NCBI GenBank assembly: GCA_009841255.1
Contig: VXMD01000042.1
Coordinates: forward strand, 1-64,000
DNA: 64,000 nt
Direction of reading: 5' to 3'
Origin: Candidatus Poribacteria bacterium
GTDB lineage: Bacteria; Poribacteria; WGA-4E; WGA-3G
Shown here: positions 3,880-35,517 of the stretch, piece by piece
Layout of the letters: each line of letters starts with the position of its first letter
Position numbering within the stretch: the first letter of the stretch is position 1
The notes under the pieces: generated by a model
The model's input: only the letters and a program-made list of their open reading frames with translations
The model's database searches: none
Told to the model about the DNA's origin: nothing
Position numbers and translations under genes: made by a program

Positions 3880-3895
3880 AAAGGAGCAACGTGCT

Positions 3896-4942
3896 GTGTT
3901 AAATCAAACAACGAAGGTCCGCGCCGCTATCGTCGGACTCGGTTGGCCCGGGATGCAACATCTCAAAGGTTATACTGCCGATCCGCGTTCAGAAGTGATT
4001 GCCATCTGCGATTTAGATAAGAAGCAGGTCAGGCAGGTAGCATCGGAACATAAAATACCGAATACCTATACCAGCCACTTGGAGATGTTAAAAAATAAGG
4101 ATATCGATGCCGTTAGTGTTTGTCTACCGAACTTCCTCCACGCCCCAATCGCTATTGATGCATTGAACGCTGGTAAGCACGTGCTTTGTGAAAAGCCGCC
4201 TGCTCGAAGTGCACAGGAAGCGAAGGCTATGGCGGATGCCGCCACTCAAAATGGAAAGACCTTAATGTATGCCCTCGTGCAGCGATTTGATGGAAGCACT
4301 CAGCGGCTGAAGCAGTTGATACGCGAAGGTCAACTCGGTGAGATCTACTTCGGTAAAGCGGGGTATGTTCGACGGCGGGGTGTTCCTATCGGCAGGGAAG
4401 GGTGGTTTGTTGATAAAGAACGCGCAGGCGGTGGAGCTCTCATTGATATTGGCGTCCATGCGTTAGATTGTGTGTGGTGGCTAATGAATTCTCCGAGGCC
4501 CGTTGAAGTTATGGGAACCTCCTATTCCCACTTTAAGCATCTGGTGCCTGATGACGTTAAATATGACGTGGACGATGCGACCTTCGCACAGATCCGCTTT
4601 GAAAACGGCGCGACGATTATCCTTGAAACGACGTGGGCATTGAACCTGCCGGGCGACAATTACGTTAAGGTCGCAGGAACAAAAGCAGGGGCGACCCTCA
4701 GTCCCTTCACGCTCTACACCGAAAAAGATGGCAAGGACTTGGATAAACCTCTTAACGCGCCTTCGATTAATGGTTTTGACGAAGAAGTAAAACACTTCGT
4801 AGGGTGTATTGTTGATGGTAAAGAGCCTATCTCTTCGGCGGAACAGGGTATCATGCTGATGCAGATGCTTGATGGTATCTACGAATCCGCAGAAAAGGGA
4901 CGATCTGTACCTATCGCAGATCTAAGTGCCGCAACCGGATGA
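3896..4942 (+). CDS. Gfo/Idh/MocA family oxidoreductase
   Basis: A 348-residue dehydrogenase-like protein with the N-terminal motif AAIVGLGWPGMQH and the EKP motif (LCEKPPARS), followed by the GGGALIDIGVHALDCVWW motif typical of the substrate domain. I favour the GTG at 3896 because AAGGAG at 3881-3886 lies 9 nt upstream. An in-frame ATG at 3872 overlaps the stop of the preceding permease and is the alternative. The gene is packed tightly between the permease and an ABC-2 permease (4-bp ATGA overlap at 4939), so it is probably cotranscribed with the exporter genes. Substrate unknown. Confidence 0.85.
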   Translation: MLNQTTKVRAAIVGLGWPGMQHLKGYTADPRSEVIAICDLDKKQVRQVASEHKIPNTYTSHLEMLKNKDIDAVSVCLPNFLHAPIAIDALNAGKHVLCEKPPARSAQEAKAMADAATQNGKTLMYALVQRFDGSTQRLKQLIREGQLGEIYFGKAGYVRRRGVPIGREGWFVDKERAGGGALIDIGVHALDCVWWLMNSPRPVEVMGTSYSHFKHLVPDDVKYDVDDATFAQIRFENGATIILETTWALNLPGDNYVKVAGTKAGATLSPFTLYTEKDGKDLDKPLNAPSINGFDEEVKHFVGCIVDGKEPISSAEQGIMLMQMLDGIYESAEKGRSVPIADLSAATG

Positions 4943-14270: not shown

Positions 14271-15083
14271 TTACCCGACTTCCTCACCGTCCAATTTACC
14301 GACGTGGAGGTCAATCTCATCGCGCGACTCAATCTTGTCCACCTTACCGTCTGCCATGTGGAAGATGCGGTCGGAGACATCTAACATTTTGTGATCGTGT
14401 GTTGCGGTGATGATGGTTACGCCGTTTTCAGCATTGAGTCGACGGAGTAAGGCAATAATTTCAAGCCCGGTTTTGGTGTCCAAGTTTCCTGTCGGTTCAT
14501 CGGCGAGAACGATTGCGGGATCATTTGCGAGCGAACGTGCGATTGCGACACGCTGTTGCTGTCCACCGGAGAGTTCTAACGGCTTGTGTTGCACGCGATC
14601 ACCGAGTCCAACGAGTGTAAGGAGGTCAACGCCTTTTTCTCTGCTTTCGTCGGCACTCATACCGGCGAAGATCATCGGAAGTGAGACGTTTTCGAGTGCG
14701 GTCATAACAGGGATAAGGTTGAACGCTTGAAAGATATAACCGATCTTTCGGCAGCGGAGCCACGCGAGTTCGTACGCGTCGAGTTGTGCGATGTCCACCT
14801 CATCAATGTAGACTCTGCCTTCGGTCGGTTTATCTAAGCCACCAATCATGTTGAATAACGTTGATTTCCCTGAACCGGAGGGACCCATAATAGAGATATA
14901 CTCACCCCGCTGGATTTGGAAATTGACACCGCGGAGTGCATCCACGGTCTGTGTTCCCATCTCATATCGTTTGATGAGGTTCCGGACGCGAACTGTATTT
15001 TCCTTTGGCAGGATGCGTTGAAACTTTTCTGGTGTCTCGGAGAGAATCGCATTAACATCGCCTATTTCTGTTGGGATATTCAT
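14271..15083 (-). CDS. LolD/MacB-type ABC ATPase
   Basis: A 270-residue ATPase with Walker A GPSGSGKS (67-74), Q-loop Q119, signature LSGGQQQ (171-177) and Walker B IVLADEP (191-197). The ADEPTGNLD stretch marks the LolD/MacB/FtsE group, which powers FtsX-like permeases. An extra stretch of about 30 residues precedes the fold. The start is ATG 15083 with AAGGAG upstream. It ends a run of minus-strand genes that begins with the giant FtsX fusion (19614-26945), so it is the natural candidate ATPase for that permease. The pairing is inference. Confidence 0.85.
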   Translation of the reverse strand: MNIPTEIGDVNAILSETPEKFQRILPKENTVRVRNLIKRYEMGTQTVDALRGVNFQIQRGEYISIMGPSGSGKSTLFNMIGGLDKPTEGRVYIDEVDIAQLDAYELAWLRCRKIGYIFQAFNLIPVMTALENVSLPMIFAGMSADESREKGVDLLTLVGLGDRVQHKPLELSGGQQQRVAIARSLANDPAIVLADEPTGNLDTKTGLEIIALLRRLNAENGVTIITATHDHKMLDVSDRIFHMADGKVDKIESRDEIDLHVGKLDGEEVG

Positions 15084-15212: not shown

Positions 15213-15680
15213 TTATCGCCTCTGTAGAAATCCAAAGAACCCTGATTTTGCGGGTTCGGGTTCAGGTGTTGCAGGCGTGTTCTGTTGAGCGGTAGGGATG
15301 GCGAACCCTATGAAATTTCGTTTACCGAGTTGCTGCATAAACGTAAAGAGGGAGGTTTCCGCTTCTTTCCGCGTCAACTGATACTGTTTTTGGACCCCTT
15401 TTATAATCTGCGAAATGTTATGCTTACCGTCGCACATCTGCCATACATACGTCCCGATGGAATCCAACACGATAACCCTTTTATTTGGCAGCATAAAAAG
15501 TTTACTGGTGAGTCGGATCCAGAGTTTGTCTTTCTGTGGAACGACGAGTGAGGCTTCACCTTTGTCGTCTATCTCCCAAGTTATCAACTGATTCCGCACA
15601 GGGAAGGACTTCATCACCTGCGTTCGGTCCACATCTGGACGTTTCTTGAGTTTGAGGGTATATAGAATTCTATTTAGCAT
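15213..15680 (-). CDS. PqqD-like domain protein
   Basis: A 155-residue protein. The core (about 60-125) reads like PqqD: a conserved hydrophobic strand, then LDSIGTYVWQMCDGKHNISQ and a helical segment ending EAETSLFTFMQQLGKRNFI. PqqD-type domains are peptide chaperones that present a precursor to a radical-SAM enzyme; none is in the window. In this setting, between an ABC ATPase and a transporter-like gene, it may be an accessory peptide-binding subunit. Its ribosome site is the CCGCAAGG end of repeat copy C. The C-terminus is proline/alanine-rich. Confidence 0.65.
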   Translation of the reverse strand: MLNRILYTLKLKKRPDVDRTQVMKSFPVRNQLITWEIDDKGEASLVVPQKDKLWIRLTSKLFMLPNKRVIVLDSIGTYVWQMCDGKHNISQIIKGVQKQYQLTRKEAETSLFTFMQQLGKRNFIGFAIPTAQQNTPATPEPEPAKSGFFGFLQRR

Positions 15681-15872: not shown

Positions 15873-16922
15873 TTAAAAATGACATTCAATACTTTTAGCA
15901 ACTTGTTGGACAATCGAAGGCCCATCGGTACTGCCGATGGATTGGATGACATAGATGCGGTTAGACTGATTGCATCGCCATAGATGAAACACAAGTGTTG
16001 TCCGTTTAGAAAGTTTATCGAGTACCAACACAGGTGAAAGTGGGACGCCATCATAAAGCCGTGTCTGTTGTCCAATGAGGGTCAGACGTTCATCTTCTGC
16101 GTCTATATTGGCTGTGACTTCAAATCCGTAGCCACGAATCGCTTTTGCGTATTTGGCGCGAAACCACGCCTCTAATGGGTTTGGAGCGTCTTTATAGTCG
16201 CTCAGCATCACCTCTGCGGGTCCGTACCGTTCCACGCTAAGCCGTCCCTTGTCGGGTACGGACGAGGCAACCTCGCCCCTACGATCGTCTACAGCACCAT
16301 TGTTCCGTAGACGATTGCTCGCCAGTTTCGCAAGCCGGACTGCGCTCTGAAAGCGAACGGGTTTTGCAACAAAGGCAAACAGTAGGTAGCCGCTGAGCAA
16401 TTTCTGACGTTCCAACTTGTATTCTTTGGGAACCCCTAACTTAAGCCCGTAGGCACTCCACAGTGTCGATGGAGCGTCCCCATGGTCTGTGATTGATTCA
16501 AAAACCCGAAGGACCGTGGGTCGCCAATTTTCCTTGAGCCGTCCCATCACCTGCACGATCGTAATCCGTTTCCCAGTGTGGAAAATCAGCCCATTTGCAC
16601 GAATATTTCCCTTCCAACTAAAACCGAGAACGGTGCGTCCCTTAAAGAATTCGTCTTCTTTGATGAGATTAACGTTCCGACGGAAGGAGAGTTCAGTGCC
16701 TTTCTTATACGTCTTGCGAATCAACTTGAAGTATTCGTCAAGCGTTGCGTGGAGATCGGGCTTTTTGCGTCGGGTATGCGCCCATTTGAGTTCAAGGCGC
16801 GGCATCTCTGCATCGTCAAGCCGGAGATATCCTGTCTTCTGATCTCCGCTGAGTCCGCTAAGTTCCCATGTCGTTGGGATTTCCAGCTCTATACCTGCCC
16901 ACCCAAAAACAGTCCATTCCAT
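15873..16922 (-). CDS. Unknown protein with two similar halves (DcrB/PsbP-like?)
   Basis: A 349-residue protein without a signal peptide or membrane helix. Two halves look alike: each starts with a strand pattern resembling IELEIPTTWELSG or LKLGVPKEYKLER, continues with a lysine/arginine-rich stretch and ends with a strand-helix motif, as in DcrB/PsbP-type folds. I do not recognise it firmly. Residues near VDDRRGEVASSVPDKG are encoded by a short repeat that appears inserted in frame (see 16263-16315). The gene lies between the OPT-like transporter and the PqqD-like gene on the same strand. Confidence 0.6.
   Translation of the reverse strand: MEWTVFGWAGIELEIPTTWELSGLSGDQKTGYLRLDDAEMPRLELKWAHTRRKKPDLHATLDEYFKLIRKTYKKGTELSFRRNVNLIKEDEFFKGRTVLGFSWKGNIRANGLIFHTGKRITIVQVMGRLKENWRPTVLRVFESITDHGDAPSTLWSAYGLKLGVPKEYKLERQKLLSGYLLFAFVAKPVRFQSAVRLAKLASNRLRNNGAVDDRRGEVASSVPDKGRLSVERYGPAEVMLSDYKDAPNPLEAWFRAKYAKAIRGYGFEVTANIDAEDERLTLIGQQTRLYDGVPLSPVLVLDKLSKRTTLVFHLWRCNQSNRIYVIQSIGSTDGPSIVQQVAKSIECHF
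16263..16315. repeat. Palindromic insertion inside a coding region
   Basis: CGAGG/CCTCG (16263-16275) and ATCGTCTAC/GTAGACGAT (16284-16292, 16307-16315) are perfect inverted repeats within an open frame. The encoded arginine/aspartate-rich stretch interrupts an otherwise regular domain. The length keeps the frame open. Confidence 0.5.
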
Positions 16923-17165: not shown

Positions 17166-19154
17166 TTAAAACGGTTTGACGATGACGGCTTTAGAGACAA
17201 GTGCAATTGCGACGGTTCCCATACCGATGAGACCGACACCGCAGGCGAATCCTGCTGCAAGGACCGGGTTGAACATATACCAACGCCGCATCCCAAATCG
17301 CTTAATCATGTAGAACCGTCCAATAACCGCGCCGAGTAGCCGTGCAACCATGCCGCCCGGATCCGCGCCGATACCTCCGATAATTCCGTAGAACCACATT
17401 GAGGGTAGTTTAAATACCCACAACATCCCGTAGATTGCGAGGCTTGAGGTAAGCCCAGCGGAGACATAGTCCCCGCGAATCGCTTGAAGCATCTGACTGT
17501 TTCCATCCCGTAGCGACGTTTTCCAGAGACATTCATTTGTGGCATTAATCGGCCACATCATCTGTGCGAACGGATACTGCGCGCTGGGGATAGGTGCAAT
17601 CTTCCAGATGAAGTGAAGCACCACAATTCCACTGACAAGCAGAATCGGCATAATCAGCAGTGTGCCCGCGAGATTTGAGGTAAAAGTCGTCCCTGTCAAT
17701 TCAAGGACGCGCCAACTCTGGGTACCGCGTCCATAATCTTCGTCTGGGAGTGGCGCGAACCAGATATCTATCTCTTCATAGCGACTCAAAATAAAAGTGA
17801 TTTCGTGTAGATACGGTATTTCAAAGAGGTCGCGTCCCAAGACACCGAAAGTCCGTGCAGTAACATACGAATTAATCGGTGTGTATAAGAATGCGTAGCC
17901 AAGCAAGAAACTCAGCGGGAAATTCGGGACCATCCAGTGGATGAGCCAGATAAATCCACCCATACCGACAAGCCACATTAATCCCATCAACCATATCGGG
18001 AAATCGCCACGGTTCGGAGGCGTCGAGAAGGATCCTCGTTCGCCAGCGGCTTTTTGGGTCTTCCGTAGTTTGATCACCATCGGAATTGAAGCCGCCATTC
18101 CAACGATTGCCAGACTAAAATTCTTACCCATCCCGTAACTAATCCAGAAATCCAGACCGTTGAACAAGCCGACACCGCGGACATCCAAACCTGGAGTCCA
18201 CTGGTGGAGAATCTCATACCGGTACAGAATTTGTGGGTTCAAAATGAATTGCGTCGCCATTGCAGTGATAAACTCTGTCATGACAACTGGGAACGGTAGC
18301 ACGAACCCAAAAAGCATCTGTCCGAAGTCGGTTCGGAAAGCGAAAACGCCTGTTGGTGCGAAGCCTTCGATGCTCTGCGTGAAATCTATCCACGGGATCT
18401 TCAAAATCTGAATCGGTTGGCTCATCATAACACCGGTGAGCGAAGGCACACCGATATAGAGGAAACCCCAGATAAGTCCTGCCATAGAGCCGATAGAGAA
18501 GACGCGCCATCGCCACGTTTCTTCCTTGCCTGTCGTTTCTGCGAGCGCCGTTGCCCCCTGCGCACTAATCGGTGCCATCGGATATGGGAGTCGCTCAAGG
18601 TCCGCCGTGAGCCGGAACAAGATATACTGTCCACTGACAAAACGCAACGTACCGAGCAATTTCCCAATGAGGTAGATACCGATAGGCAGGAACCAGTCTG
18701 GATGTATCAGAGTTCGCGTAAGCACGCCGACAGAATCACCTGCCGGTACAATCCAGTCTGGGATTTTGTCGGCGATCTCGTAGGATGCTGCTTGTGGCGT
18801 GTTGATAAAATAAGCGTACCAGATAAAGTTCCGGTACTGAAGCCCACTTCCGACAGCCGCACCTGTTAACCCGAGGAGCATATAAAGCTCCTGCCGTCGG
18901 GCAGTTGTAAAGGAACGCCGCGCGAGTTCAGTAAATAGAATAACGGCAACCCAAGGTGCTGCACCAGCCCCGGATTCACCGGATACGTAACTGAGATAAA
19001 TGGAACCCGGCATCATCAGCAAGCCAACGAAAAGTGCTCCAACGAACACCTTAACTGTTAGTCCCGACTCAAAGGTACGGATACCGCCTTCAATGTCGTA
19101 TCGCTGTGCCCAAGCTTGCCATTCATCTGCTTGTGATACTCTTTCTCTCGCCAA
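17166..19154 (-). CDS. OPT-like multi-pass membrane transporter
   Basis: A 662-residue protein with many hydrophobic helices (roughly 12-15). The conserved-looking stretch LERLPYPMAPISAQGATALAE resembles the proline-containing loop of oligopeptide-transporter (OPT) and related DUF6785-type proteins. The segments ANLAGTLLIMPILLVSG and LGAVIGRFYMIKRFGMRRW support a transporter. The start is TTG 19154 with AGGAG about 10 nt upstream. A related-looking protein is encoded at 52760-54754. In this minus-strand run it lies between the small membrane protein and the unknown two-half protein. Substrate unknown. Confidence 0.6.
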   Translation of the reverse strand: MARERVSQADEWQAWAQRYDIEGGIRTFESGLTVKVFVGALFVGLLMMPGSIYLSYVSGESGAGAAPWVAVILFTELARRSFTTARRQELYMLLGLTGAAVGSGLQYRNFIWYAYFINTPQAASYEIADKIPDWIVPAGDSVGVLTRTLIHPDWFLPIGIYLIGKLLGTLRFVSGQYILFRLTADLERLPYPMAPISAQGATALAETTGKEETWRWRVFSIGSMAGLIWGFLYIGVPSLTGVMMSQPIQILKIPWIDFTQSIEGFAPTGVFAFRTDFGQMLFGFVLPFPVVMTEFITAMATQFILNPQILYRYEILHQWTPGLDVRGVGLFNGLDFWISYGMGKNFSLAIVGMAASIPMVIKLRKTQKAAGERGSFSTPPNRGDFPIWLMGLMWLVGMGGFIWLIHWMVPNFPLSFLLGYAFLYTPINSYVTARTFGVLGRDLFEIPYLHEITFILSRYEEIDIWFAPLPDEDYGRGTQSWRVLELTGTTFTSNLAGTLLIMPILLVSGIVVLHFIWKIAPIPSAQYPFAQMMWPINATNECLWKTSLRDGNSQMLQAIRGDYVSAGLTSSLAIYGMLWVFKLPSMWFYGIIGGIGADPGGMVARLLGAVIGRFYMIKRFGMRRWYMFNPVLAAGFACGVGLIGMGTVAIALVSKAVIVKPF

Positions 19155-19308: not shown

Positions 19309-19497
19309 TCACTCTTCGCCTGATTCTTCGGTATCATCGGTGTCTCGTAATTCTTCCCAGAAATGCGCCCAGAAAATACCAACTATCAGTACAAGAGCCG
19401 AGAATATCTGCCATTGCCAGCGCCCTTCGAGGGCAAGAACGCTGAACAGCCATAAGAAGGTGCCAAGGATGATGATAAAACTTGCTACTTTTTCCAC
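19309..19497 (-). CDS. Small membrane protein, two helices
   Basis: A 62-residue protein when started at GTG 19497, which has AAAGGACAG about 8 nt upstream; the frame stays open to 19569, but that part is polar and unlikely. Two hydrophobic segments (ASFIIILGTFLWLFSVLA and WQIFSALVLIVGIFWAHFW) are separated by a short loop, with an acidic C-terminus (EELRDTDDTEESGEE). No homology recognised. It lies between the giant permease and the OPT-like gene and may be a small subunit or unrelated. Confidence 0.55.
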   Translation of the reverse strand: MEKVASFIIILGTFLWLFSVLALEGRWQWQIFSALVLIVGIFWAHFWEELRDTDDTEESGEE

Positions 19498-19613: not shown

Positions 19614-22600
19614 CTAATCTGCGGGTGCCGGTACTGGATCCATCTGTCCTGCTTCTTCTGCCGAGGGGTCCATGCCTTCGGTTCTGCCGCGCTCATGGAA
19701 CTCTGCTCGGATATCGACACTGAATGTCCGCCAAATCAAAAGCTGTTTCCGCAGCAGATTGAGGAAACGTCGGTTGACCCGCTTCCAAGAGGCAATCTCA
19801 CCACTCTCGCGATGTACATCCAACGTGATTTTATAGAGATCCTCTTCTTCACCGCCTACTGGAGATGTAACGAACTGAATAGACTGGCTCACACCCAAGT
19901 CATAAGGCGCCAACCAGACCATCATCCCGATCTGATAGGAATCTTCGGCTTCTGTTTGGCTGAATGCAACCTGGTCCGTGTAGAAATCACTGGCAGATTC
20001 GTCCGCATGTGCCTCAAAATAATCCCGCATAAAGACGTTCAGACCGAGGGCTTCTTCTTCGAGGACGGTAAAGGGTAGGTTGAAGTGCCAGACATCCCCT
20101 TCAGGTTCCGGGAGTTTCCACTTACGTTCGATATCGGGGACTGCCATCCGTGAGGCTTTGATTGCTGGATACAGGGTACTTAACAACACGACAGCCATGA
20201 CGATGATTGTTGCAACAACAGTGGACATTGATGAGTAATTGAGCGTCAGCCCGGCAAGCCAGCCGAAGTGCACCAAGGTTGTCGCTATTGCTTGTCCCAT
20301 GAGATAACCTAACACCGCACCAACGATAGCGTATACGCATGCTTCTGCAAGGAACAGGAAGGCGATATGCACAGGCGCGAGTCCCACGGAACTGTAAATG
20401 CTGATTTCGCGGACCCGTTCATAGACAGCACCAAGCATGGTGTTAAGAACGATGAGGGCCGCGATCAAGATCGGCACAAACAAGTTACCCATACCGCTGA
20501 AACTCGTCATTCCGATACTACTGTAGAGGTATGTATCTTTATCCCGCCCTACAAAGAAGTCAAGGGCGATACGGTTCATGAGGGGTGCCATAATGAGATC
20601 TAACTTATCTATTGCCCCTAACAACTGCGGATCGTCCTCTTGCGGTTCCATGTTAACGGCAACACTTCGGAGTGTGCCGCCTTGATTCATAACCACCGCG
20701 TATGGCAGAATGGCAACACTATCTGGTGTGAGATGGAGATATTTTTGTAACTCACCCTCAAGTGTCTCATCACCCGTCGCACCTCGGCTCCGTTGCTGTT
20801 GCATCAACTGATAGTCGACGGGCGTAAGTTCTTCGCCATCGTTATCGGTGAGATCCTTGAAACCGATACCAAGAACACCGACGACGGTAAAGTCCGCACC
20901 GTAAACAGAAACGGTAGCTTTACCCATATCGCTTTCGGTAATCTTGAGCAACTCTGCCATCCCTTTAGGTAACACAATGGCGTAGGGCCACTCCGTTGGC
21001 CATTCGGCGGCATCTGCCGGGGTAAACCACTTCCCGTATTGAAGGTATCTGTCAATACCACTGACACCCGGTTCTGATTCATTCATACCCACGAGCATAT
21101 TTGCAGCAAAGGTCAATGCTTCACCCGTTAGTTGATGGGTCGGAGGCGATGGATCTGCTGGGTTTGCCGTGCGTGTAAGTTGGACAAACGATTGATCGCC
21201 GGTTCCTGAGGATTGATACCATGCACGCGGTGCGACGACGTTCCGAACAAATAAGACGGATTCTTCGTCGACCTTTTCAATGAAGCCACCCTCTTCTAAA
21301 GCCGTGCGTGCTTCCGCGAGGTCAACAGGTTGTTGTCCCTGTTTGACCAAGAGTTCATTCTTGCGTTGCAAAAGTCGTTCTAAGGCAGTGAGTGTGATCT
21401 GCGTCTTTTGCATATCATTTAGCACAGAGGTAAGCACAGGTTCTTCAAGTGGACGCCAGTATTGGTCACGAATGAGAAGTCCTGTATAGCGCGGTGTTAC
21501 TTGCGGGAGACTCGTTCTATTCGGATGCATAAACGTCCGCACGGAGGTAAACGATATAACAGTAAAGGTCAGAATTACCAACGTACAGCAGGTCAAGATC
21601 GTCCGTCCTTTCCGTTTCCGCATGTTGGAGATACCTAAACTGAATGCGGCGGCACTCGCGCTTAGTCTACCAACATCTGCTTTATAAACCTTACTTCCCT
21701 CTTGCCGGATCTTTTCGAGTTGCTCCTCGAATTTTCGGACAATAATGCTAATGACGATAACCGTCAATGCCAGCACTACGAACGCGATGAGGATAATCAC
21801 GGGTGTGGTGGTAATCTGGAATGCAGGGTGAACTTGACTGAGAAAGAAAAAGACAAGTAAAAAGATACCGAAGGATCCCAAAATCTGCTTGTGGATATTC
21901 GGGAATCCAAAAATGAGCCGCTCCATAAAGTACGCGAACGGCATGAGTAAAGCGAGATAGAACATTACGCCATTAACAACATCGTTACCCGTCTGTTTGA
22001 CATCCGGATAGGCCCGTGATTCGTAACCCCACGCGGCGCGAGCGAGTTTGAGGGCTTGTTGATAGTCGCTTTGGAGCAATTCAGTTTCTGCCCGTGCAAG
22101 GTAATCGTTCGCAAATTGATGGAGTTTATCAAGCCGATCGCTCGAGATACCGAACCGTTTATAAAGTCGTGAGCGGTTTTCATCGAGCCACCACATATCC
22201 CGGACAACGACATACGGCGTGAGACGAATTTGCCCGTTTTCGCGGACAACAAATCCTTCACCGGTATAAAGCGTCGGATTCTTCATACCGCTCTTCGTTG
22301 CTTTGATGAGTAGGAGTCGTTTGCCGATCTGTCCATACGCCATTCCGACTTTAATGCGGGTGTTTGGTTCGCTATACACGAGTGCGATAGGTTCGGCTGC
22401 AGACACACCTTCCTGTTGCCACGGTTTGGACATCCCGAATTTCTCCGGCGAACTGTCAGTGAGTGCATCATAGACTTCGAGTTCCCGCAGCGTTCGCAGG
22501 TACCGCTGATCCACCAAGTCGTAGATAGTTGTAGATACACAAGGGAATGTGACAACCCGACACCCGCGTCTACGCGTATTGATGGGAATTTCATTCGGGA

Positions 22601-25600
22601 GCAGTTTAGCACCGTAATTCCCTAAATCGGGTGCGTAGATGATATCACCAGAATCTGGATCGAGAATATAGGCTTCGACTTCTTGTTTCCCTTTGAGACG
22701 TCGTGTGGCTCTACCTTCCATGGCTAACCCGGCAACTTCAAAATTTCCCTTGTTGTCGCCCATCACAAACAGGTCCCCGCGGACCCCCATCATGGTTTTA
22801 TTCTTTCTACGCAGTGTGATGATAGGATAGGGGACGGGTTTATTCGGGAGTGCGGACTCGCGTGCATCAAATTCAACGACATCACCGAAGAGATTGCAGT
22901 AGAAATTCCCGACCCGTGCAGCGGTAGGCATTTCTTCGTCCCGGAGTGCTTGGATGAGTAGCGATGCCAGGGTCTGTGCTTGCTGATGGAGGTTACCGTC
23001 TTTGTGCAAGTCTACGCGTTCAATCGTATCGAGGGGTGTATCCGTTAAGACGCGGGCGTCTTCGATGGTTGCAAAAGCGATTCCGGTCTTTCCGACAAGC
23101 GTTGCTACCTCACTGTCAAAAGCGATTTTACCGGGGATATAAGTTTTCCAAGTCTTTCCACCGCTTGCGGAGATGGCGTTAACAAAGTTTGACTCACCGC
23201 CGAGACCCGCGATCGAAATAAGCGTTTTAATGTCCTCGATTTCTTCATCGGAGAAAGTTTCCGGATCTTCATGTCGAAGTCGGAGCATTGCGTCGAGTTG
23301 CTCACGTGTACGGATGTTATTCTTTCGATTTTTCTTTGCAGTGCGGACATCATTTCGGATGAAACGCTCGACCTCTTTTCGGATATAATCCATATCCTTG
23401 AGCATATCCTCAGAGGGTTCACCTTGGTTGCGCCACTGTTCAAACTGCATTTTCATCAGTCGACTCACGCCGCTGAGACCCGTGAGTTTATTGAAGTGCG
23501 AACTCAGTAGCGTTTCAAGGGTCTTTCCTTCAAGGGCGGCTTTATCAGAGATTCCATTTGCGACCGTCCATTGACGTGCCATAACGGCTTGTCGAATTTG
23601 GTCATCTGTCCACTGCCAAAGTTTCCGGACACGGACACCAAAATCAGCATCTTCGGCGTAAGAGGCAAGTTTATTGCCGATGCTTGCAAACTCGCGACGT
23701 AATACAAATTCGGGTTGCTGGTCATAGAACCATCCCTTATTGAACACCCCGAACTGATTCGATTGTGAGGAGAGGTCAATACTAATGTAGAGGGAGGTAT
23801 AATATCGGTTGAACAGGTCTTGAAGGGCGATAGCGGCCTCAATCTGACCGAGTTTTCGGTTGTATTCATCGGTGTCGATGCGCAGCATCTTTTCAATGCG
23901 ACTCTGGATGTTACGGAAACGGGCGTTGCGGAGTGTCAACATGTTATCGCGAAGAAGCACTTTCGTTTCTTCATCCAAATCGGTATCTAATGTGGGTAAC
24001 CGTTCAATGAGGTTTTCGAGTGCTACGATATCTGTGTCTGCACGCTTTTTGACGATTTCTAAGAGTTCTTTTTCGTTAATGTGTGATGAGATGCGCGAAC
24101 GCAACGAAAGTGCCTGTTCAACTTCATCCTCTGATAGGTAATTTTCCAAAATGAGACGTTCTTCATCCAAGTATTCCCGCCCTAACGTTCCGGCTGTTGC
24201 GATCAAATTCTGGATACGCGTTTGTTCCAATCGGGCATTCCGGAGCGCAATTTCAAAGATACCCTGTTTATCTTTCAGAAGATCTGCTATCAATATGGCA
24301 GCATCAACAACGTCTTCAGATTCGTTGAGCCGCTGTCGAAGTTGGGTGTCGATAGTATTAAGGCGCTCTATCCCGGGCTTCGACAAAAACTTACCACCGT
24401 AAATTAGAGCATCGCCGCTTGATTTTCCCATCGGCGTTTCTTTGAGTCTCCGAATGCTGACTTTAATCTCGTCTTCAACGGGTTGGCTATCAGGGATTTG
24501 TGCCAGAACCTTTTCAAGGAGTTGGACCTCTCGCTGAATCGCGACGGCTTGGGTGTCGTTGGCATCGCGCAAAACACTGCGGGCATCTTTCGCTTTATTG
24601 AGTGAGTGTAGGTCGAGATGCCGGTCGAGTATTTTCTCGGGAGTCCACATCAGCGCAAATTTGCGTTTGTCGCTCATCTCCCAGTTTGCGAGGGTTGTGT
24701 TAAGCATCTCTATATCAGGAACGAGTTCTTGTGGAAGATCCGCTGGGATAGGGATTTGCCAGTCTGACCCCTGTTCTATCGGAATAAGGTAGGCATCGTT
24801 TGGATGGGTCCTATATTCGTCGGTACCGCCAGTCTCTATAGCCTGAATGAGTTTCTTGACTGCCCATGTGTCAAGACGGGCAATCGGTAGCCCAAGCGTT
24901 TCGATTAATTCGCGCTGCGCGGATCGGCTTGTATTGAGGGCAACAGCACGAACCTCGGCTAACCTACCGACAATATCTCGAAGGAAATGTGTCGTTTGCA
25001 GCGCCTCTTTCTTCGAGCGGGCAAGATTTGCTAACAGACGACTCTTCTCTTCACCTGTGAACCCCTGTTTCTCACGTTTTCGATTCCTATCTGTTTGCTT
25101 CTTCTGGCGTTCTGAAAAGTCCCGCTGTTGCTCCGTGAGAGATTCAATCTCAGACCGTGTTTCTGCCAAACCATCGAGAGTCGTCGTCAGGGAGTCCAAG
25201 TCAGACTTTACGTTATGTATGCCGTGGAAAAAGTTGGCTGGGAGATCGACGAGGACACTCCGGTCAATGGAGAGCAGAAGCCTTCTACCCAATTCTTCAA
25301 ATTCGAGGACATCTGTAGAGAGTCCACGGCGCAGTCCGTGCATCGTTGGTGTACCGGGTGAATCGGTATCAGAACCTACAATATCTTGTCCAATGCCTTC
25401 CATGAAGGCACGCATGCCAGCAAGCCCTTGGAAGTGTCCATCAACTGCAACAAAGAGGACAGAGTAACCGGGCCGATATTGGGGCTGACTAAAAAGACGC
25501 GCCAGTTCCATAAGGGTCGCGATCCCGCACGTCGGATCAGCGCCGGGAGCCATCGCAGGGACGACGGACATGGCGTCGTAGTAGGCTGTGAGAACGATGA

Positions 25601-26945
25601 GTTCATCGCGTAAGGTCGGATCTCCACCTTCCAAAAATCCACGTATATTTTGTCCGACGCGACGTTCCCAGGTCATCTTACCCCTGACGCGAACGTTAAC
25701 TTGATTGCCCTGAGCGTGTTGTTCTTCCAATAAATCGGTGAGGACAGCCGCATCTTCTTTGGCGATCCAGAATCGCGGTATATTGGCAGGGACCGTACCG
25801 AATTTATTTTCTGCTTCGCCTCGAATGGTTGTTTCGGGTTCAATAAAGATAACGGCAGTGCCCCCGAGCATTGCCGCATTGATATAACGGGTGCTGGAGT
25901 TAAAATCGAGAAGGACTATCGCCCCTTTCGGGATAAAGATGTGTGACTCACTCGCGGCGACAAACTCTCCGGATTCATCGACTTGTCCATTGTTGTTATT
26001 ATCGATTCCATCGGTATCGTCTCCTGGCGTTTCGTCTGTCCAGCCATCTGCGTCGTTGTCAATGCCATCTGTTCCCCACCCTAAGATTTCAGAAAGCAGG
26101 GGGATTTCGCCGTATTCATCAATAGTGCCATCCTCATCATTGTCAATACCATCGGACGCTTTTTGCAAATGTTCATTAAGTATATCATCGGTGATGCTGG
26201 CTTCGGTAATACGATAACGTCGGGCGAGTGTTGTGAGCGTATCCCCATCTTGGAGTTTGTGCCAAAATCCACCAATGTTGGTGCCGTTAAAATCGGCGAG
26301 TTCAGCATCGTCGCCGTAAAGAAGGGGACCCGACAAACCGCCTGTTGGAATAAATACGGTGCTGCCTTCGACAACCGGGGTCGCCAAAAATTTGTTCCGG
26401 TCATCTGCGCGGATAACCGTTTCGTCAATTTGGTAACTTTCTGCGATGTCTTGAAGTGTTTCACCCGCTAACACGGTATGTTTAATTCCGTCTGCTAACA
26501 GGGAGGTCCGCACAAGATTGGGCCAGAGTGGGGCAAGTTTAAAGGCGTGTAATAGATCGGCTTCCGGAGAGAATACTTCAATGATACTATCACCATGGTC
26601 AATCGGCACAGTGACGGAAAACTCTCGGCTTTCTACGTTTTGTAAGCCGGTTTCGACGAAACGGTCAAAAATGTATTTGCTGCCACTCGCAGCTTGTGGG
26701 TAGCCCGTTACTCGGCTGTCGAGGCTTGAGAGGCGTGCAATGTCCTTTCGAATGTTGCCAATAGAGAGATCATCGCGGATCTGAATAGCTGCGGATTTCA
26801 GGTTTCCCGTACTGGAAACGGCTTGGGCATAAGCAGTATCGGACAGTTGCCCAGCGACAAACAAAACGGAAAGGAAAAAAATTGATACGTTTATGAGCGC
26901 ACTGAAGCGTCGCAAGCGGCACGCGTGTCTACTATGAATTTTCAT
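19614..26945 (-). CDS. Giant fusion: inactive M28 peptidase, LysM modules, coiled coil, FtsX permease
   Basis: A 2443-residue envelope protein. After a signal sequence (about 14-40) comes an M28/PA-domain region. It is interrupted by one LysM (about 155-200) and by a second LysM (about 228-338) that is itself split by calcium-loop repeats of the DGIDND type (265-327). The PA strands resume at GAIVLLDFNS (341). The M28 core (about 445-520) has lost key metal-site residues: AYYD replaces GHYD (Y455) and GHFQG replaces GEEQG (H504, F505); GAD (468-470) is kept. About 1100 mostly helical, coiled-coil-like residues follow. The membrane part starts near 1660, with FtsX-core helices near 1790 and 2140-2260 and the family loop YERVREISIYSSVG. 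A soluble tail of about 160 residues ends it. Start ATG 26945 has GGGAG upstream. Confidence 0.85.
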   Translation of the reverse strand: MKIHSRHACRLRRFSALINVSIFFLSVLFVAGQLSDTAYAQAVSSTGNLKSAAIQIRDDLSIGNIRKDIARLSSLDSRVTGYPQAASGSKYIFDRFVETGLQNVESREFSVTVPIDHGDSIIEVFSPEADLLHAFKLAPLWPNLVRTSLLADGIKHTVLAGETLQDIAESYQIDETVIRADDRNKFLATPVVEGSTVFIPTGGLSGPLLYGDDAELADFNGTNIGGFWHKLQDGDTLTTLARRYRITEASITDDILNEHLQKASDGIDNDEDGTIDEYGEIPLLSEILGWGTDGIDNDADGWTDETPGDDTDGIDNNNNGQVDESGEFVAASESHIFIPKGAIVLLDFNSSTRYINAAMLGGTAVIFIEPETTIRGEAENKFGTVPANIPRFWIAKEDAAVLTDLLEEQHAQGNQVNVRVRGKMTWERRVGQNIRGFLEGGDPTLRDELIVLTAYYDAMSVVPAMAPGADPTCGIATLMELARLFSQPQYRPGYSVLFVAVDGHFQGLAGMRAFMEGIGQDIVGSDTDSPGTPTMHGLRRGLSTDVLEFEELGRRLLLSIDRSVLVDLPANFFHGIHNVKSDLDSLTTTLDGLAETRSEIESLTEQQRDFSERQKKQTDRNRKREKQGFTGEEKSRLLANLARSKKEALQTTHFLRDIVGRLAEVRAVALNTSRSAQRELIETLGLPIARLDTWAVKKLIQAIETGGTDEYRTHPNDAYLIPIEQGSDWQIPIPADLPQELVPDIEMLNTTLANWEMSDKRKFALMWTPEKILDRHLDLHSLNKAKDARSVLRDANDTQAVAIQREVQLLEKVLAQIPDSQPVEDEIKVSIRRLKETPMGKSSGDALIYGGKFLSKPGIERLNTIDTQLRQRLNESEDVVDAAILIADLLKDKQGIFEIALRNARLEQTRIQNLIATAGTLGREYLDEERLILENYLSEDEVEQALSLRSRISSHINEKELLEIVKKRADTDIVALENLIERLPTLDTDLDEETKVLLRDNMLTLRNARFRNIQSRIEKMLRIDTDEYNRKLGQIEAAIALQDLFNRYYTSLYISIDLSSQSNQFGVFNKGWFYDQQPEFVLRREFASIGNKLASYAEDADFGVRVRKLWQWTDDQIRQAVMARQWTVANGISDKAALEGKTLETLLSSHFNKLTGLSGVSRLMKMQFEQWRNQGEPSEDMLKDMDYIRKEVERFIRNDVRTAKKNRKNNIRTREQLDAMLRLRHEDPETFSDEEIEDIKTLISIAGLGGESNFVNAISASGGKTWKTYIPGKIAFDSEVATLVGKTGIAFATIEDARVLTDTPLDTIERVDLHKDGNLHQQAQTLASLLIQALRDEEMPTAARVGNFYCNLFGDVVEFDARESALPNKPVPYPIITLRRKNKTMMGVRGDLFVMGDNKGNFEVAGLAMEGRATRRLKGKQEVEAYILDPDSGDIIYAPDLGNYGAKLLPNEIPINTRRRGCRVVTFPCVSTTIYDLVDQRYLRTLRELEVYDALTDSSPEKFGMSKPWQQEGVSAAEPIALVYSEPNTRIKVGMAYGQIGKRLLLIKATKSGMKNPTLYTGEGFVVRENGQIRLTPYVVVRDMWWLDENRSRLYKRFGISSDRLDKLHQFANDYLARAETELLQSDYQQALKLARAAWGYESRAYPDVKQTGNDVVNGVMFYLALLMPFAYFMERLIFGFPNIHKQILGSFGIFLLVFFFLSQVHPAFQITTTPVIILIAFVVLALTVIVISIIVRKFEEQLEKIRQEGSKVYKADVGRLSASAAAFSLGISNMRKRKGRTILTCCTLVILTFTVISFTSVRTFMHPNRTSLPQVTPRYTGLLIRDQYWRPLEEPVLTSVLNDMQKTQITLTALERLLQRKNELLVKQGQQPVDLAEARTALEEGGFIEKVDEESVLFVRNVVAPRAWYQSSGTGDQSFVQLTRTANPADPSPPTHQLTGEALTFAANMLVGMNESEPGVSGIDRYLQYGKWFTPADAAEWPTEWPYAIVLPKGMAELLKITESDMGKATVSVYGADFTVVGVLGIGFKDLTDNDGEELTPVDYQLMQQQRSRGATGDETLEGELQKYLHLTPDSVAILPYAVVMNQGGTLRSVAVNMEPQEDDPQLLGAIDKLDLIMAPLMNRIALDFFVGRDKDTYLYSSIGMTSFSGMGNLFVPILIAALIVLNTMLGAVYERVREISIYSSVGLAPVHIAFLFLAEACVYAIVGAVLGYLMGQAIATTLVHFGWLAGLTLNYSSMSTVVATIIVMAVVLLSTLYPAIKASRMAVPDIERKWKLPEPEGDVWHFNLPFTVLEEEALGLNVFMRDYFEAHADESASDFYTDQVAFSQTEAEDSYQIGMMVWLAPYDLGVSQSIQFVTSPVGGEEEDLYKITLDVHRESGEIASWKRVNRRFLNLLRKQLLIWRTFSVDIRAEFHERGRTEGMDPSAEEAGQMDPVPAPAD

Positions 26946-31260: not shown

Positions 31261-31438
31261 TATACGGCATAGCATCAAAACCTGAGCCTGCAACAATACG
31301 CAGAAATACCGGATTTAGTCTGGGGATAGACTAAATCCATTCCTTGTATTACATTGCAAAAACACGCAGGCGACTCGAACACGAAAAACACCAATATCCA
31401 GGAACCACTGATACTTACCCGCAAGGTATAATTAAGAA
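31261..31438 (+). repeat. Mosaic repeat, copy E, with embedded palindrome copy 2
   Basis: Modules include GCCTGCAACAATACGCAGAAAT (31286-31307), the GGATTTAGTCT palindrome with flank (31311-31355), CTCGAACACGAAAA, CCAATATCCA, GATACTTACC and CCGCAAGG (31419-31426), then TATAATTAAG. No plus-strand gene follows. Instead the TAATTAAG end supplies the stop codon (31432-31434) of the 1361-residue minus-strand gene. Confidence 0.65.
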
Positions 31439-34400
31439 ATTTCGAACTGCACATCCGTGGCGGCGTGCAGATACTTTACCAATATAGCGTCCTTATCTTC
31501 AATATAAAGCCATCCGGATTCGACCGCTTCGAGCGTTTGCACACCCGCGATTTCGATCTCCGCGTATTTATCCTGTGTGTTAACGGATTCAGAATCGTCA
31601 TCGGTAGTTGCGGACTCGTCGATTGATGATGAAAACTGATAGCGTGCCCGAAGTGCTTGTGGGGCGCGTCCATAACCGACAATTAGGGTATAACTCGCTT
31701 CGTTATCGGCGTAGCTAAGTTGCCAGTTCAGTTGCCCGTTATCGGTTAAGGTAAGTCCATTTACCATTGCCCCGGAACTGAGGTGTATCTCTCCGGCGAT
31801 AGCGGTTTTAATTCCGGGATCGAGCCCGCGGAGTGTATAAACGTTCACCATGATATCTTCGGGATTCAGGTGTGGTCCCTTACCTTCGGTGCAGAAGCCA
31901 TAAAATCCATCGGGATAGGTACCCTTAAGTTCACCCTCCTCCCACTGTTGATACATCGCACTTACCGTAATACCCTCAGCAATTTGAAGCCATCTATCAT
32001 CTACGGTATGCCGGTTTAAGCGTTGTAAGTAATAGGCGAGAACCAATCCGTTCCATTGAACAGGAACACCAAACCACGGATGCGTATAGAAGCTTGTCCC
32101 GAAAACTGGGATTGAGGCGAACTGCATACCGGGTCGGTCTGGGAGATGCCAATGGTAGAGAAATGGCAACGCTGTCGCCGCCCAATACGTTGCGCGTTTG
32201 AGATATTCTTTTTCCGCTGTTAATTCGTAAGCCTCAACATAAGCACCGATGGCATGAGCAGCCGCAAGAACATCTGGTTGATACATCGGGCATTCCCACA
32301 TCTGTGCGCCGCGTGGCACGGAGAATTGCTGAATAAACGCCAGGGCTTTCAAACCTGCCTCACGCGAGGTTTTATTTCCGGTAATCCGAGCATGTTTAAG
32401 GAGGAGAAGTGCGGATTCTGCACAGGTGCCGAGCACTGCTTCACCTGCCGTTCCGAGGGAAGCGGTTTTCGCGTGTGTTGGGCGCCATCGCCAGCTTCCA
32501 TCCGACTCTTGTGTAGCGATGCGTTGCCGCGTTTCTTCCTCCATGTAGGAGAATCCGGCATCGATATTACCGATATAGAATGGAAATTCCCATCTTAAAA
32601 TGTGACACGAACCACGGGCAGCCAAGGCCTCTGCTCCGGATTCAGTTATGGTATTTTGAGCAATTTCTAACACCCGTTCCTTTACATGTTCATCTTTTGT
32701 AGCAAGGTAGTCGTACCAAAGTAGGGTGCCGAAGCCCGGTTCGTTGTGCGGTGCCCAGTCTACGCAGTGACGGGATTTTCGAGTGACTTCATCCCATGTC
32801 GTCTGCATAAATCCGTGCCGCGAAAGTAAGAGTTCTTCTTCGTCGTTACGGGGTGGTGATAACGGTTCAGGGGCACCGTAGGCATCGTTCCAATGTGCTA
32901 TGGCATCTAAGACAGAGGCATTCTCATCCACAATGATTTCAGTTTTGATGGAGACCGGACGCGACGGTATCAATGGATATGGGATAGAAGCCTCTGTTTG
33001 ATTTTCTGGGACCCAGGCTGGCACAGTCGGGATGAATACACCGAGGGCGTGATTTTTCTGATATTGATGCCAATTGGGCGAAGCGAATACTGCAGAGAGC
33101 ATCCGATTCTCACCATCCCAAGTGTCCAAAGGATTCCAGATGAGACCGACCATTGATTTCTGCATCTCTACTGCCATGACGGGCACTGTAATTTTATACG
33201 GATGTGGGACAAGACGGTTGTTAAATGGCGGAGCTGCGTCGCGTGTGCTTGAAGAACGTTCATCGGTTTCCAAGAATTCAAGCCCAGGGAAAAGTGCGGC
33301 GGTTTTCTTTTCGCGGTTCCGTCCTTGTCCCGTGTAAAGCATCGGACCCCGAAAGACAAGGAGTTCTCTGTTCCCATCCGTTTGCAACTGGTATTCCGTT
33401 TTCACCCGTGTCGCACTTTCGCTGAGCGTCCACTGCATCTCGTAAGTCCACTCAACACCATCTACATCTGTGTTCGAACCCCTTAGGCGGACAATTGACT
33501 CCCCTCGATTGTTTCCAGCGAGTTGATAATCTGTCGGCGAAAGCTGCGATGTTTGACGGTTTTGTGATGCGTCTAAATAGACAACCTCAGAGAGTGCTGG
33601 ACAGGTGGCCACCTGCTGATAGTTCCCACCTTTTGCAACAAAGATTATGCAATACGCAAATCCTTCCTCAACACCCTGAGTCTCTTGTTTATTTTCCTTG
33701 CTGATTTTTGATGTTGCTTCGGGGCCACGGACGAAAACGATACGAAGGTGTTTATTCCCCATCACAACACTACCGTTTTCCGTGTAGGTGTGCAGTTCTT
33801 TTACCACCTTGGCAGCGAGTTTAGGTGGTTCGGGGAGAACCGCAATGCTGTCTTTGGCGGTTTGACGTTCTTCGCCTGCTGAAGTTTGACATTTAAGCGA
33901 GACAGAAACGGGAGCTACAGTCGGGTTTGGGAGACGACGAGCTACCCAGGAGACAGAGGTTTCTTCACTGGGTTCAATTTCTTTAATGGTTTGGCTCGGA
34001 CGTCCACGCCGTAGTTTCATGCCGTTGATAGAAATTCGTGCCGTATCTGCTTTACCGAGTGGGGCAGTGCCGGTGTTCCGAAGCGTGCATTGCACTTCAA
34101 AATCTTCGCCTGCAGTGACAACCGCAGCTGTCGCACCTATGTTCACAATTTCTAATTTCGGCTGTGCGGCGTAAAGCGATATTTTGACAGGAGATGCTTT
34201 TGGTTTGTACGACTCGAGACAAATGTCTACTAAATCGGAAATCGGCGTTGATGTCGGTTGGCTAAACTCACGGAGCTGTATCGTGTCGTCACTGGCGTGT
34301 AAGATAGCGATTCCACAGCGTACTTCCGGTTCGGTGTTTCTTGTCCCTTTCCGGAGGGAGGTCTGTTTGAGTTTGCGTAACTGCGGCTTGCCCCACAAAG

Positions 34401-35517
34401 CCCACGCGTAGTTACTATTACCTTCTATGTTACATTCCGTCAGAAATGAGATGACGACTTCTTTACCCGCATAGGACGTGAGTTCGATACTTTCTTCTAC
34501 CCACTGACATTCGGTTGATACGGATTCAAAGTATCTTTCCGGTGTGGCTTCTAAGCCTGTATTAAGAAGATCGAAAATTTCGATAGCAAACTTTACACCA
34601 CCGGGCGGTCGCTCCGCGTCGTCAAAAACAACACCATCCCGTAATCCGATGGAGAAATGCAGGAAGAGTTTCTCTTTTTTATCAACATCCGGAAGTGACA
34701 ACGTGTAGTCGATTTTTGCGGCTTCTGTTGGGGTTGGGTGTTCAAAGATAGCCGGCTTTATCACGCCGCCGGAATAATCTATTCCGCTGACGGATGCTTG
34801 ATCTGTACCGGAAACGGTACTTTGTCCAAACATCTCCACAAAGTCGTAAATCTCTTCAATAATGCCGAGTTCTGACAGTATTATTTCCGGCTCTACTTCG
34901 GAAGTTTCTGTTTCAGTATCGTCGCTTCCGTCTGTTTCCTGCGGTGGCGGCGATTCAACGTCAGAGACCTCTGCGTGCTGTGCTACAGCCTCCTCACTTT
35001 CCTGTTCAGATATTACAATCTCCGTTGCGCATTCTGTTTCGTCTTCGGGAACAGGATCAGTGTCATCCGATGGCTCCGTTGCTGCATCATCAGACGACGC
35101 GAGATCGACGATTTCGATGACAGATGCTTCTTCTGTGCTGGGTGTGTCGGGAATCTCCTCCGCACTCGCGTGAGCCTCTTCGTCTATAGAGATAGGTAAG
35201 ACTTCACTGTCGAATTGTGTTTGCGGGGTATCATCATCTGTAGCGACAGACGGAGACCCATCGTCTTCAGAGGGTGTTGCCTCCGACGCAGCCGGGGCGT
35301 CAGCGTTTTCGATTTCCGAGGGTTCAGAAACTGGGATATCGGAGGTATCTGATGCTACGGATTCAGGATCCTTCGTGGAATTATCGTCAGTCATGAATTC
35401 TAATTCCGTTTGGTGTTCGTCACTCTGCTGTGCATCGGTAGTTGGATCGTTCTCTTCCTCTGTATTTCCGATACAAGCGGCTAAAAACTGTTGAACGATA
35501 TAGGGGGCGGTGAGCAT
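31432..35517 (-). CDS. Large multidomain protein with acidic N-terminus and toroid-like C-terminal region
   Basis: A 1361-residue protein of unknown function. Residues about 16-215 are low-complexity and very acidic (Asp, Glu, Ser, Thr-rich). A carbohydrate-binding-like sandwich (about 230-380) and a CARDB/Ig-like domain (about 445-560, QPKLEIVNIGATAAVVTAGE) follow. Another beta region is next, then a helical C-terminal half (about 860-1260) whose repeated aromatic motifs (LLWYDYLATKDE, AYVEAYELTAEKEYLKRATYWAATAL) resemble an alpha/alpha toroid as in glycosidases and lyases. FLAAC near residues 11-15 looks like a lipobox, but no basic n-region precedes it, so export is uncertain. Neighbouring sugar genes suggest a polysaccharide role (inference). 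Confidence 0.65.
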   Translation of the reverse strand: MLTAPYIVQQFLAACIGNTEEENDPTTDAQQSDEHQTELEFMTDDNSTKDPESVASDTSDIPVSEPSEIENADAPAASEATPSEDDGSPSVATDDDTPQTQFDSEVLPISIDEEAHASAEEIPDTPSTEEASVIEIVDLASSDDAATEPSDDTDPVPEDETECATEIVISEQESEEAVAQHAEVSDVESPPPQETDGSDDTETETSEVEPEIILSELGIIEEIYDFVEMFGQSTVSGTDQASVSGIDYSGGVIKPAIFEHPTPTEAAKIDYTLSLPDVDKKEKLFLHFSIGLRDGVVFDDAERPPGGVKFAIEIFDLLNTGLEATPERYFESVSTECQWVEESIELTSYAGKEVVISFLTECNIEGNSNYAWALWGKPQLRKLKQTSLRKGTRNTEPEVRCGIAILHASDDTIQLREFSQPTSTPISDLVDICLESYKPKASPVKISLYAAQPKLEIVNIGATAAVVTAGEDFEVQCTLRNTGTAPLGKADTARISINGMKLRRGRPSQTIKEIEPSEETSVSWVARRLPNPTVAPVSVSLKCQTSAGEERQTAKDSIAVLPEPPKLAAKVVKELHTYTENGSVVMGNKHLRIVFVRGPEATSKISKENKQETQGVEEGFAYCIIFVAKGGNYQQVATCPALSEVVYLDASQNRQTSQLSPTDYQLAGNNRGESIVRLRGSNTDVDGVEWTYEMQWTLSESATRVKTEYQLQTDGNRELLVFRGPMLYTGQGRNREKKTAALFPGLEFLETDERSSSTRDAAPPFNNRLVPHPYKITVPVMAVEMQKSMVGLIWNPLDTWDGENRMLSAVFASPNWHQYQKNHALGVFIPTVPAWVPENQTEASIPYPLIPSRPVSIKTEIIVDENASVLDAIAHWNDAYGAPEPLSPPRNDEEELLLSRHGFMQTTWDEVTRKSRHCVDWAPHNEPGFGTLLWYDYLATKDEHVKERVLEIAQNTITESGAEALAARGSCHILRWEFPFYIGNIDAGFSYMEEETRQRIATQESDGSWRWRPTHAKTASLGTAGEAVLGTCAESALLLLKHARITGNKTSREAGLKALAFIQQFSVPRGAQMWECPMYQPDVLAAAHAIGAYVEAYELTAEKEYLKRATYWAATALPFLYHWHLPDRPGMQFASIPVFGTSFYTHPWFGVPVQWNGLVLAYYLQRLNRHTVDDRWLQIAEGITVSAMYQQWEEGELKGTYPDGFYGFCTEGKGPHLNPEDIMVNVYTLRGLDPGIKTAIAGEIHLSSGAMVNGLTLTDNGQLNWQLSYADNEASYTLIVGYGRAPQALRARYQFSSSIDESATTDDDSESVNTQDKYAEIEIAGVQTLEAVESGWLYIEDKDAILVKYLHAATDVQFEIS

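Follow-up and report, generated by a model that had tools for sequence, protein, structure and literature searches.

This locus raises the question of whether a frame of 2443 residues, read in an initial annotation as a secreted peptidase-like module fused to an FtsX permease, encodes a real protein, and what such a protein would do. Type VII ABC systems usually have small permeases with a modest periplasmic domain, and Poribacteria, in which the frame occurs, are sponge symbionts that are hard to culture. The window analysed here, 64,000 nucleotides of contig VXMD01000042.1 of a Candidatus Poribacteria bacterium, contains this frame at the head of a gene cluster. Our analysis indicates that the cluster probably encodes an unrecognised cell-envelope transport machine.

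The frame, its size and its coordinates (19614-26945) stood as first annotated, and the gene lies on the minus strand; the plus frame over the same interval is riddled with stops. The protein, called the giant below, is present in 82 of 85 genomes and 21 of 22 genera of the phylum Poribacteria, in most of them as one unbroken full-length frame, which excludes chance or a mis-join. An assembly fusion, named at the outset as a possible objection, is ruled out by this recurrence and by long single contigs that carry the same frame. The giant is a near-universal protein of Poribacteria. Identity is about 89-96% within a genus, about 70% within the order and 52-64% across the rest of the class, and the nearest named relatives, among the best 80 of 136, are Candidatus Poribacteria MAGs. 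Homologues of about 1550 aa were found in 195 of 291 Armatimonadota genomes and in both Desantisbacteria genomes. A search elsewhere for the order M28-LysM-FtsX had been proposed as a check; the M28-FtsX order recurs in hundreds of genomes. In one locus (L155:2269-6919) the giant is split over two frames, and the gene of its membrane partner, described below, comes only after a gap of about 1 kb; a frameshift or sequencing error is possible there. Two genomes of one Poribacterial family have a second giant, 61% identical (L033:6911-14593 and L035:6001-13680), and the other genes of the cluster are absent from the stretch read around these copies.

The features of the gene, from the N-terminus, are as follows.

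19614..26945 (-), the whole gene: giant predicted type VII ABC permease, its ectodomain a pseudo-M28 fold, 2443 aa
26826..26945 (-), predicted signal peptide, residues 1-40 (hydropathy 11-35)
26496..26768 (-), M28 fold, N-terminal segment, residues 60-150 (short homologues aligned by profile with M28 enzymes encoded in the same genome)
26343..26483 (-), LysM 1, residues 155-201; its acidic loop is lost here and kept in relatives
25926..26270 (-), LysM 2, residues 226-340, broken by three DGIDNDxDG acidic (calcium-type) loops; absent in short homologues
25746..25931 (-), PA-like subdomain within the M28 region, residues 339-400 (weak Pfam PA)
25398..25649 (-), M28 core, residues 433-516, with Y455, D457, D470 and G503-H504 at catalytic positions
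23826..25397 (-), charged, helix-like insert within M28, residues 517-1040 (HSP boundaries)
22956..23825 (-), M28 fold, C-terminal segment, residues 1041-1330, with D1057 and D1302-T-P
21981..22955 (-), conserved periplasmic region without assigned fold, residues 1331-1655 (conservation)
21723..21980 (-), three extra TM helices ahead of the FtsX core, residues 1656-1741 (hydropathy)
21540..21608 (-), FtsX TM1, residues 1780-1802 (hydropathy)
20508..21539 (-), MacB/LolC-type periplasmic core domain, residues 1803-2146 (Pfam MacB_PCD, TM spacing)
20145..20507 (-), FtsX TM2-TM4, residues 2147-2267 (Pfam FtsX; MacB and LolC in the PDB)
19617..20138 (-), highly conserved cytoplasmic C-terminal tail, residues 2270-2443 (cross-phyla hhalign 100%, E 3e-67)

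That an M28-fold ectodomain and an FtsX permease share a single chain was borne out by Pfam, with FtsX at residues 2157-2267 (46.1 bits, cut-off 25.5) and M28 at residues 433-516 (30.7 bits, cut-off 21.3). LysM was also above its cut-off (27.6 against 20.9 bits), while the PA and MacB_PCD matches of this copy were below the gathering score. MacB_PCD matched at E<=0.1 in all of 16 diverse Poribacterial giants, with a best value of 2e-9, and a profile search of the PDB found MacB (1e-7) and LolC (2e-7) as well as M28 entries. Hydropathy gives the order signal peptide, about 1620 periplasmic residues, three TM helices, TM1, a periplasmic domain of about 345 residues and TM2-TM4, and the large periplasmic part first estimated at about 1600 residues is thereby confirmed. 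The three extra helices put the chain inside before TM1, so that the topology is consistent. The FtsX fold, the MacB-type periplasmic domain and the LolD-type ATPase encoded in the same operon together mark the giant as a predicted type VII ABC permease. Its C-terminal tail matches no known family, and a comparison with the 349-aa protein of the operon showed no relation.

A single M28 fold with inserts makes up the periplasmic part as far as the conserved region at residues 1331-1655. The M28 domain extends to about residue 1330 and is interrupted by an insert of about 720 residues. Compared with a 1535-aa homologue (L112), the giant has about 160 additional residues at 179-340, containing the two LysM domains with DGIDNDxDG loops, and about 720 aa at residues 517-1236 (517-1040 plus about 1100-1236) where the homologue has 72 aa. 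Calcium loops had been claimed for this part, and the acidic loops are indeed present and conserved. LysM was found in none of 20 short homologues and not in Armatimonadota. Both the LysM/calcium-loop insert and the insert of about 700 residues are Poribacterial additions. The cell-wall link through LysM proposed in the initial annotation is thus restricted to Poribacteria and cannot be the core function, and the link to the outer surface was not supported. One of the 20 short homologues, by sequence the Desantisbacteria copy, has an F5/8-type-C domain in place of LysM. The M28 fold of the giants thus looks like a scaffold on which inserts that bind the surface or the wall can be exchanged. 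In the Desantisbacteria giant (L111:6820-11745) this F5/8-type-C (galactose-binding) insert apparently lies inside M28, at the site of the Poribacterial long insert.

A functional peptidase module was not supported by the residues of the M28 domain. The ectodomain core of short homologues aligned with the M28 enzymes of the window genome over 396 columns (probability 99.6%). We take the reference positions of the Aeromonas aminopeptidase to be His97, Asp117, Glu151, Glu152, Asp179 and His256; in the register of the profile alignment the giant of the window has, in order, Tyr455, Asp470, Gly503, His504, Asp1057 and Asp1302. Thus G or A stands in for the catalytic Glu, Y for the first ligand His, H for the Glu ligand and D for the last ligand His. 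In alignments of 16 diverse Poribacteria, Tyr455, His504, Asp1057 and Asp1302 are invariant. Two of these, the His and the last Asp, persist across phyla, being invariant or nearly so among the 20 short homologues (H329, D479-T480). Of 118 copies longer than 1400 aa, 105 were scored at the first ligand position and 102 of them have Y there. At the EE position all 108 scored copies read xxH[F/H], and all 110 scored at the last ligand position have D in place of His, although the search patterns themselves demanded H and D and the unscored copies (10 and 8) are possible exceptions. The alignments that show the catalytic replacements do not depend on these patterns. His at the first ligand position is rare (2 copies) and suggests descent from an active enzyme. 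M28 aminopeptidases rank first in the profile search of the PDB, and the best match to the giant in a single-sequence search is nicalin (3.7e-5). With the catalytic Glu and two metal ligands replaced in nearly all copies examined, the M28 domain is, as far as residues can tell, a pseudopeptidase. The conservation of the replacement set implies that the pocket is retained for something other than standard hydrolysis.

The giant is the first gene of a small operon that is kept across Poribacteria and much of Armatimonadota. Its other genes in the window, in the order of transcription, are as follows.

19309..19497 (-), protein of 62 aa, two TM helices predicted, in the interval between giant and transporter, probably unannotated
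17166..19154 (-), 662-aa transporter of predicted OPT fold (AlphaFold and Foldseek)
15873..16922 (-), probable tandem-repeat protein, 349 aa, lacking a signal peptide
15213..15680 (-), PqqD-like protein, 155 aa (PF05402, 43.1 bits, cut-off 23.4)
14271..15083 (-), LolD-type ABC ATPase, 270 aa, with Walker A, signature and Walker B intact

The 662-aa, 349-aa, PqqD-like and ATPase genes follow the giant on the same strand with intergenic gaps as small as a few bases, and no promoter or terminator was found when the interval from giant to transporter was scanned. Of 58 Poribacterial loci that extend 7 kb or more downstream, 54 have these five genes in this order, which answers the question raised earlier of whether the giant co-occurs with the ATPase at 14271; in 6 of the 54 complete loci the 662-aa gene is doubled. 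The initial annotation was partly supported as a whole, and had missed the OPT-fold transporter, the tandem-repeat and PqqD-like proteins, the 62-aa membrane protein and an unlinked mini-FtsX. The 62-aa protein is conserved in most Poribacterial loci and missing from the deepest Poribacteria and from Armatimonadota. Upstream lies a 1361-aa ORF (31432-35517, minus strand) that close relatives also have beside the giant at many loci, and the window also contains, at 2644-4942, an FtsX-type permease of ordinary size (411 aa) followed by a 375-aa ORF.

Nine complete loci in Armatimonadota have the same order with a mini-FtsX, a 220-aa FtsX without periplasmic domain, between PqqD and the ATPase. 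In the Desantisbacteria locus a block of 349-aa, PqqD-like, mini-FtsX and ATPase genes is ahead of the giant. In other loci the mini-FtsX and ATPase genes precede the giant, or the giant is accompanied by the 662-aa gene only. An apparent fusion of the ATPase in one locus (L143) spans N bases and is an assembly gap. No further conserved neighbours emerged in Armatimonadota, where the recurring frames were known genes, mostly antisense shadow frames. Mini-FtsX is present in 28 of 30 Poribacteria and is unlinked to the operon; in the window genome it is encoded elsewhere, with its own adjacent ATPase. One such locus (L127:4796-6222) shows the mini-FtsX followed by its own LolD-type ATPase. Since it has its own adjoining ATPase, the Poribacterial mini-FtsX may form a separate complex. 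The operon ATPase is 71% identical to that of the Armatimonadota operon and 62% identical to the second, mini-FtsX-linked ATPase of its own genome. PqqD was matched at E<=1 in 10 of 10 members of the PqqD-like family, and Pfam has no family for the 349-aa protein.

Pfam likewise has no family for the 662-aa protein, in 13 members, and no sequence relative was found in the PDB. An AlphaFold2 model built from 95 sequences had a pLDDT of 85 and a pTM of 0.84; a model from 13 sequences (pLDDT 40) was discarded. In a Foldseek search of the PDB two barley YS1 entries were the only significant matches (E 6e-10, TM-score 0.60-0.65). YS1, a member of the OPT family, carries iron-phytosiderophore in an elevator-like manner (PMC9691689). 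A comparison with DUF6785/OPT by hhalign gave 0.5%, which is not significant. Membership of OPT or DUF6785 is thus unconfirmed by sequence profiles, and the OPT label is a fold assignment: the 662-aa protein is, in the model, an oligopeptide/metal-chelate transporter (OPT) by fold and not by sequence family. The window genome has 33 DUF6785 (OPT-like) genes and its relatives have 17-39, a large expansion. In 291 Armatimonadota genomes, counted with incomplete MAGs included and phylogeny uncorrected, giant and OPT-fold gene are both present in 189, one only in 8 and 6, and neither in 88, so that 189 of the 203 genomes having either have both. The OPT-fold protein is an obligate-looking neighbour of the giant. 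Adjacency and co-occurrence, with phylogeny uncorrected, do not prove that the two form a joint complex.

From the parts, motifs, linkage and conservation observed, we infer coupling, substrate and direction. We give about even chances to an ATP-driven type VII mechanotransmission complex that binds a peptide-like ligand through its dead-peptidase ectodomain and cooperates with the OPT-fold transporter. The giant and mini-FtsX would form a heterodimer with two ATPases, in which ATP binding and hydrolysis would set the periplasmic stalk and the M28 pseudopeptidase in motion. The latter would bind a peptide-like or amino-acid-like ligand without hydrolysing it. The OPT-fold protein would pass this ligand, or a product, through the inner membrane, with the ABC motor loading, gating or unloading it. 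Cytoplasmic roles might fall to PqqD, which is a peptide-binding fold, and to the 349-aa protein. In Poribacteria the insert with LysM and calcium loops would anchor the ectodomain to peptidoglycan, as an add-on and not as the core function. A peptide-like ligand is suggested by the peptide-related folds (M28, OPT and PqqD), and its identity is a guess from these folds. That motor and OPT-fold carrier constitute one complex, in which ATP hydrolysis drives or gates a secondary-type transporter through the dead-peptidase ectodomain, is a bolder proposal that we regard as possible though doubtful.

An extractor or exporter like Lol, MacB or YbbAP is unlikely, though worth serious attention. Here the giant would extract substrates (lipids, lipoproteins or hydrophobic compounds) out of the inner membrane and pass them to its ectodomain, and the OPT-fold gene would be a mere neighbour. 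The giant core is nearest to LolC and MacB, the ATPase is nearest to LolD, and there is a precedent in E. coli YbbAP-TesA, in which a type VII ABC system acts with a periplasmic hydrolase on extracted lipids (PMC12646458). However, the giant scores 19.3 bits against a cut-off of 362 for the NCBI LolCE equivalog, and the same genome has a better LolCE-like gene (240 bits, still below the cut-off). The near-obligate OPT-fold partner is also left unexplained, and the position of the hydrolase is taken by a dead peptidase. A regulator of peptidoglycan remodelling like FtsEX, sensing the wall via LysM and activating hydrolases, would share the type VII ABC mechanism and make use of the two LysM domains of Poribacteria. 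It is nevertheless very improbable, as LysM is absent in 20 of 20 short homologues, the operon has no hydrolase, canonical FtsE and FtsX genes are present in the same genome, and the FtsX_Gneg score is 14.4 against a cut-off of 255. A replacement of LolCE or FtsX by the giant is likewise unlikely, as separate genes are present in the genome. Similarly low is the probability of ribosomal peptide handling, in which PqqD would bind a precursor that the ABC/OPT pair exports: the PqqD fold is a known peptide-binding module in the RRE literature, but the loci compared have no modifying enzyme or other conserved gene, and such clusters are rarely universal in a phylum. An active secreted peptidase, tethered to an exporter and breaking down peptides at the membrane, has the M28 homology above the Pfam cut-off, and its two metal-ligand Asp, mostly kept, with His or Asp at other ligand sites might form a non-standard metal site, but we reject it on the catalytic residues as least probable, since a small residue for the catalytic Glu and Tyr for the first ligand His in nearly all copies are a loss of the same kind as in nicalin, the nearest single-sequence PDB match.

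The mechanotransmission complex working with an OPT-fold transporter is the reading that we prefer. Because the giant is near-universal in Poribacteria and common in Armatimonadota, its system is probably central to the envelope or nutrition of these phyla. A type VII ABC permease can bear an entire pseudoenzyme, and can stay beside a transporter of unrelated fold over very long evolutionary times. The analysis names five to seven concrete, testable genes and gives a first lead on function for two families without a Pfam entry. If true, an ABC motor that drives or gates an OPT-fold carrier would be a hybrid transport class not described before. All components with an assignable fold belong to known fold classes; the fused architecture and the operon appear to be new, as neither an M28-FtsX fusion, nor a characterised family of this architecture, nor such a Poribacterial system was found in the libraries or literature searched.

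The giant resembles several known systems in part. Nicalin and nicastrin also have a membrane-linked M28 fold without catalytic residues, but are eukaryotic and have no ABC permease. The 662-aa partner shares the fold of the OPT/YSL carriers (barley YS1), whereas it has no detectable OPT or DUF6785 sequence membership and sits in an ABC operon. The FtsX fold and, in Poribacteria, the peptidoglycan link via LysM are reminiscent of FtsEX; unlike in FtsEX, the operon of the giant has no hydrolase, LysM is not conserved in the giant family, and canonical FtsEX is separate in the same genome. MacB and LolCDE have in common with the giant the FtsX-type TM core, the MacB-type periplasmic domain and the LolD-type ATPase. 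The giant differs from them by an extra periplasmic module of 1600 residues, three extra TM helices before TM1, a half-size FtsX partner and an OPT-fold partner, and it is below the LolCE cut-off. YbbAP-TesA is similar in combining a type VII ABC system with a periplasmic hydrolase-fold protein (PMC12646458). It has a separate, active esterase and a duplicated permease of 10 TM helices, whereas in the giant an inactive peptidase fold is fused to the permease and the second half-permease is a separate gene.
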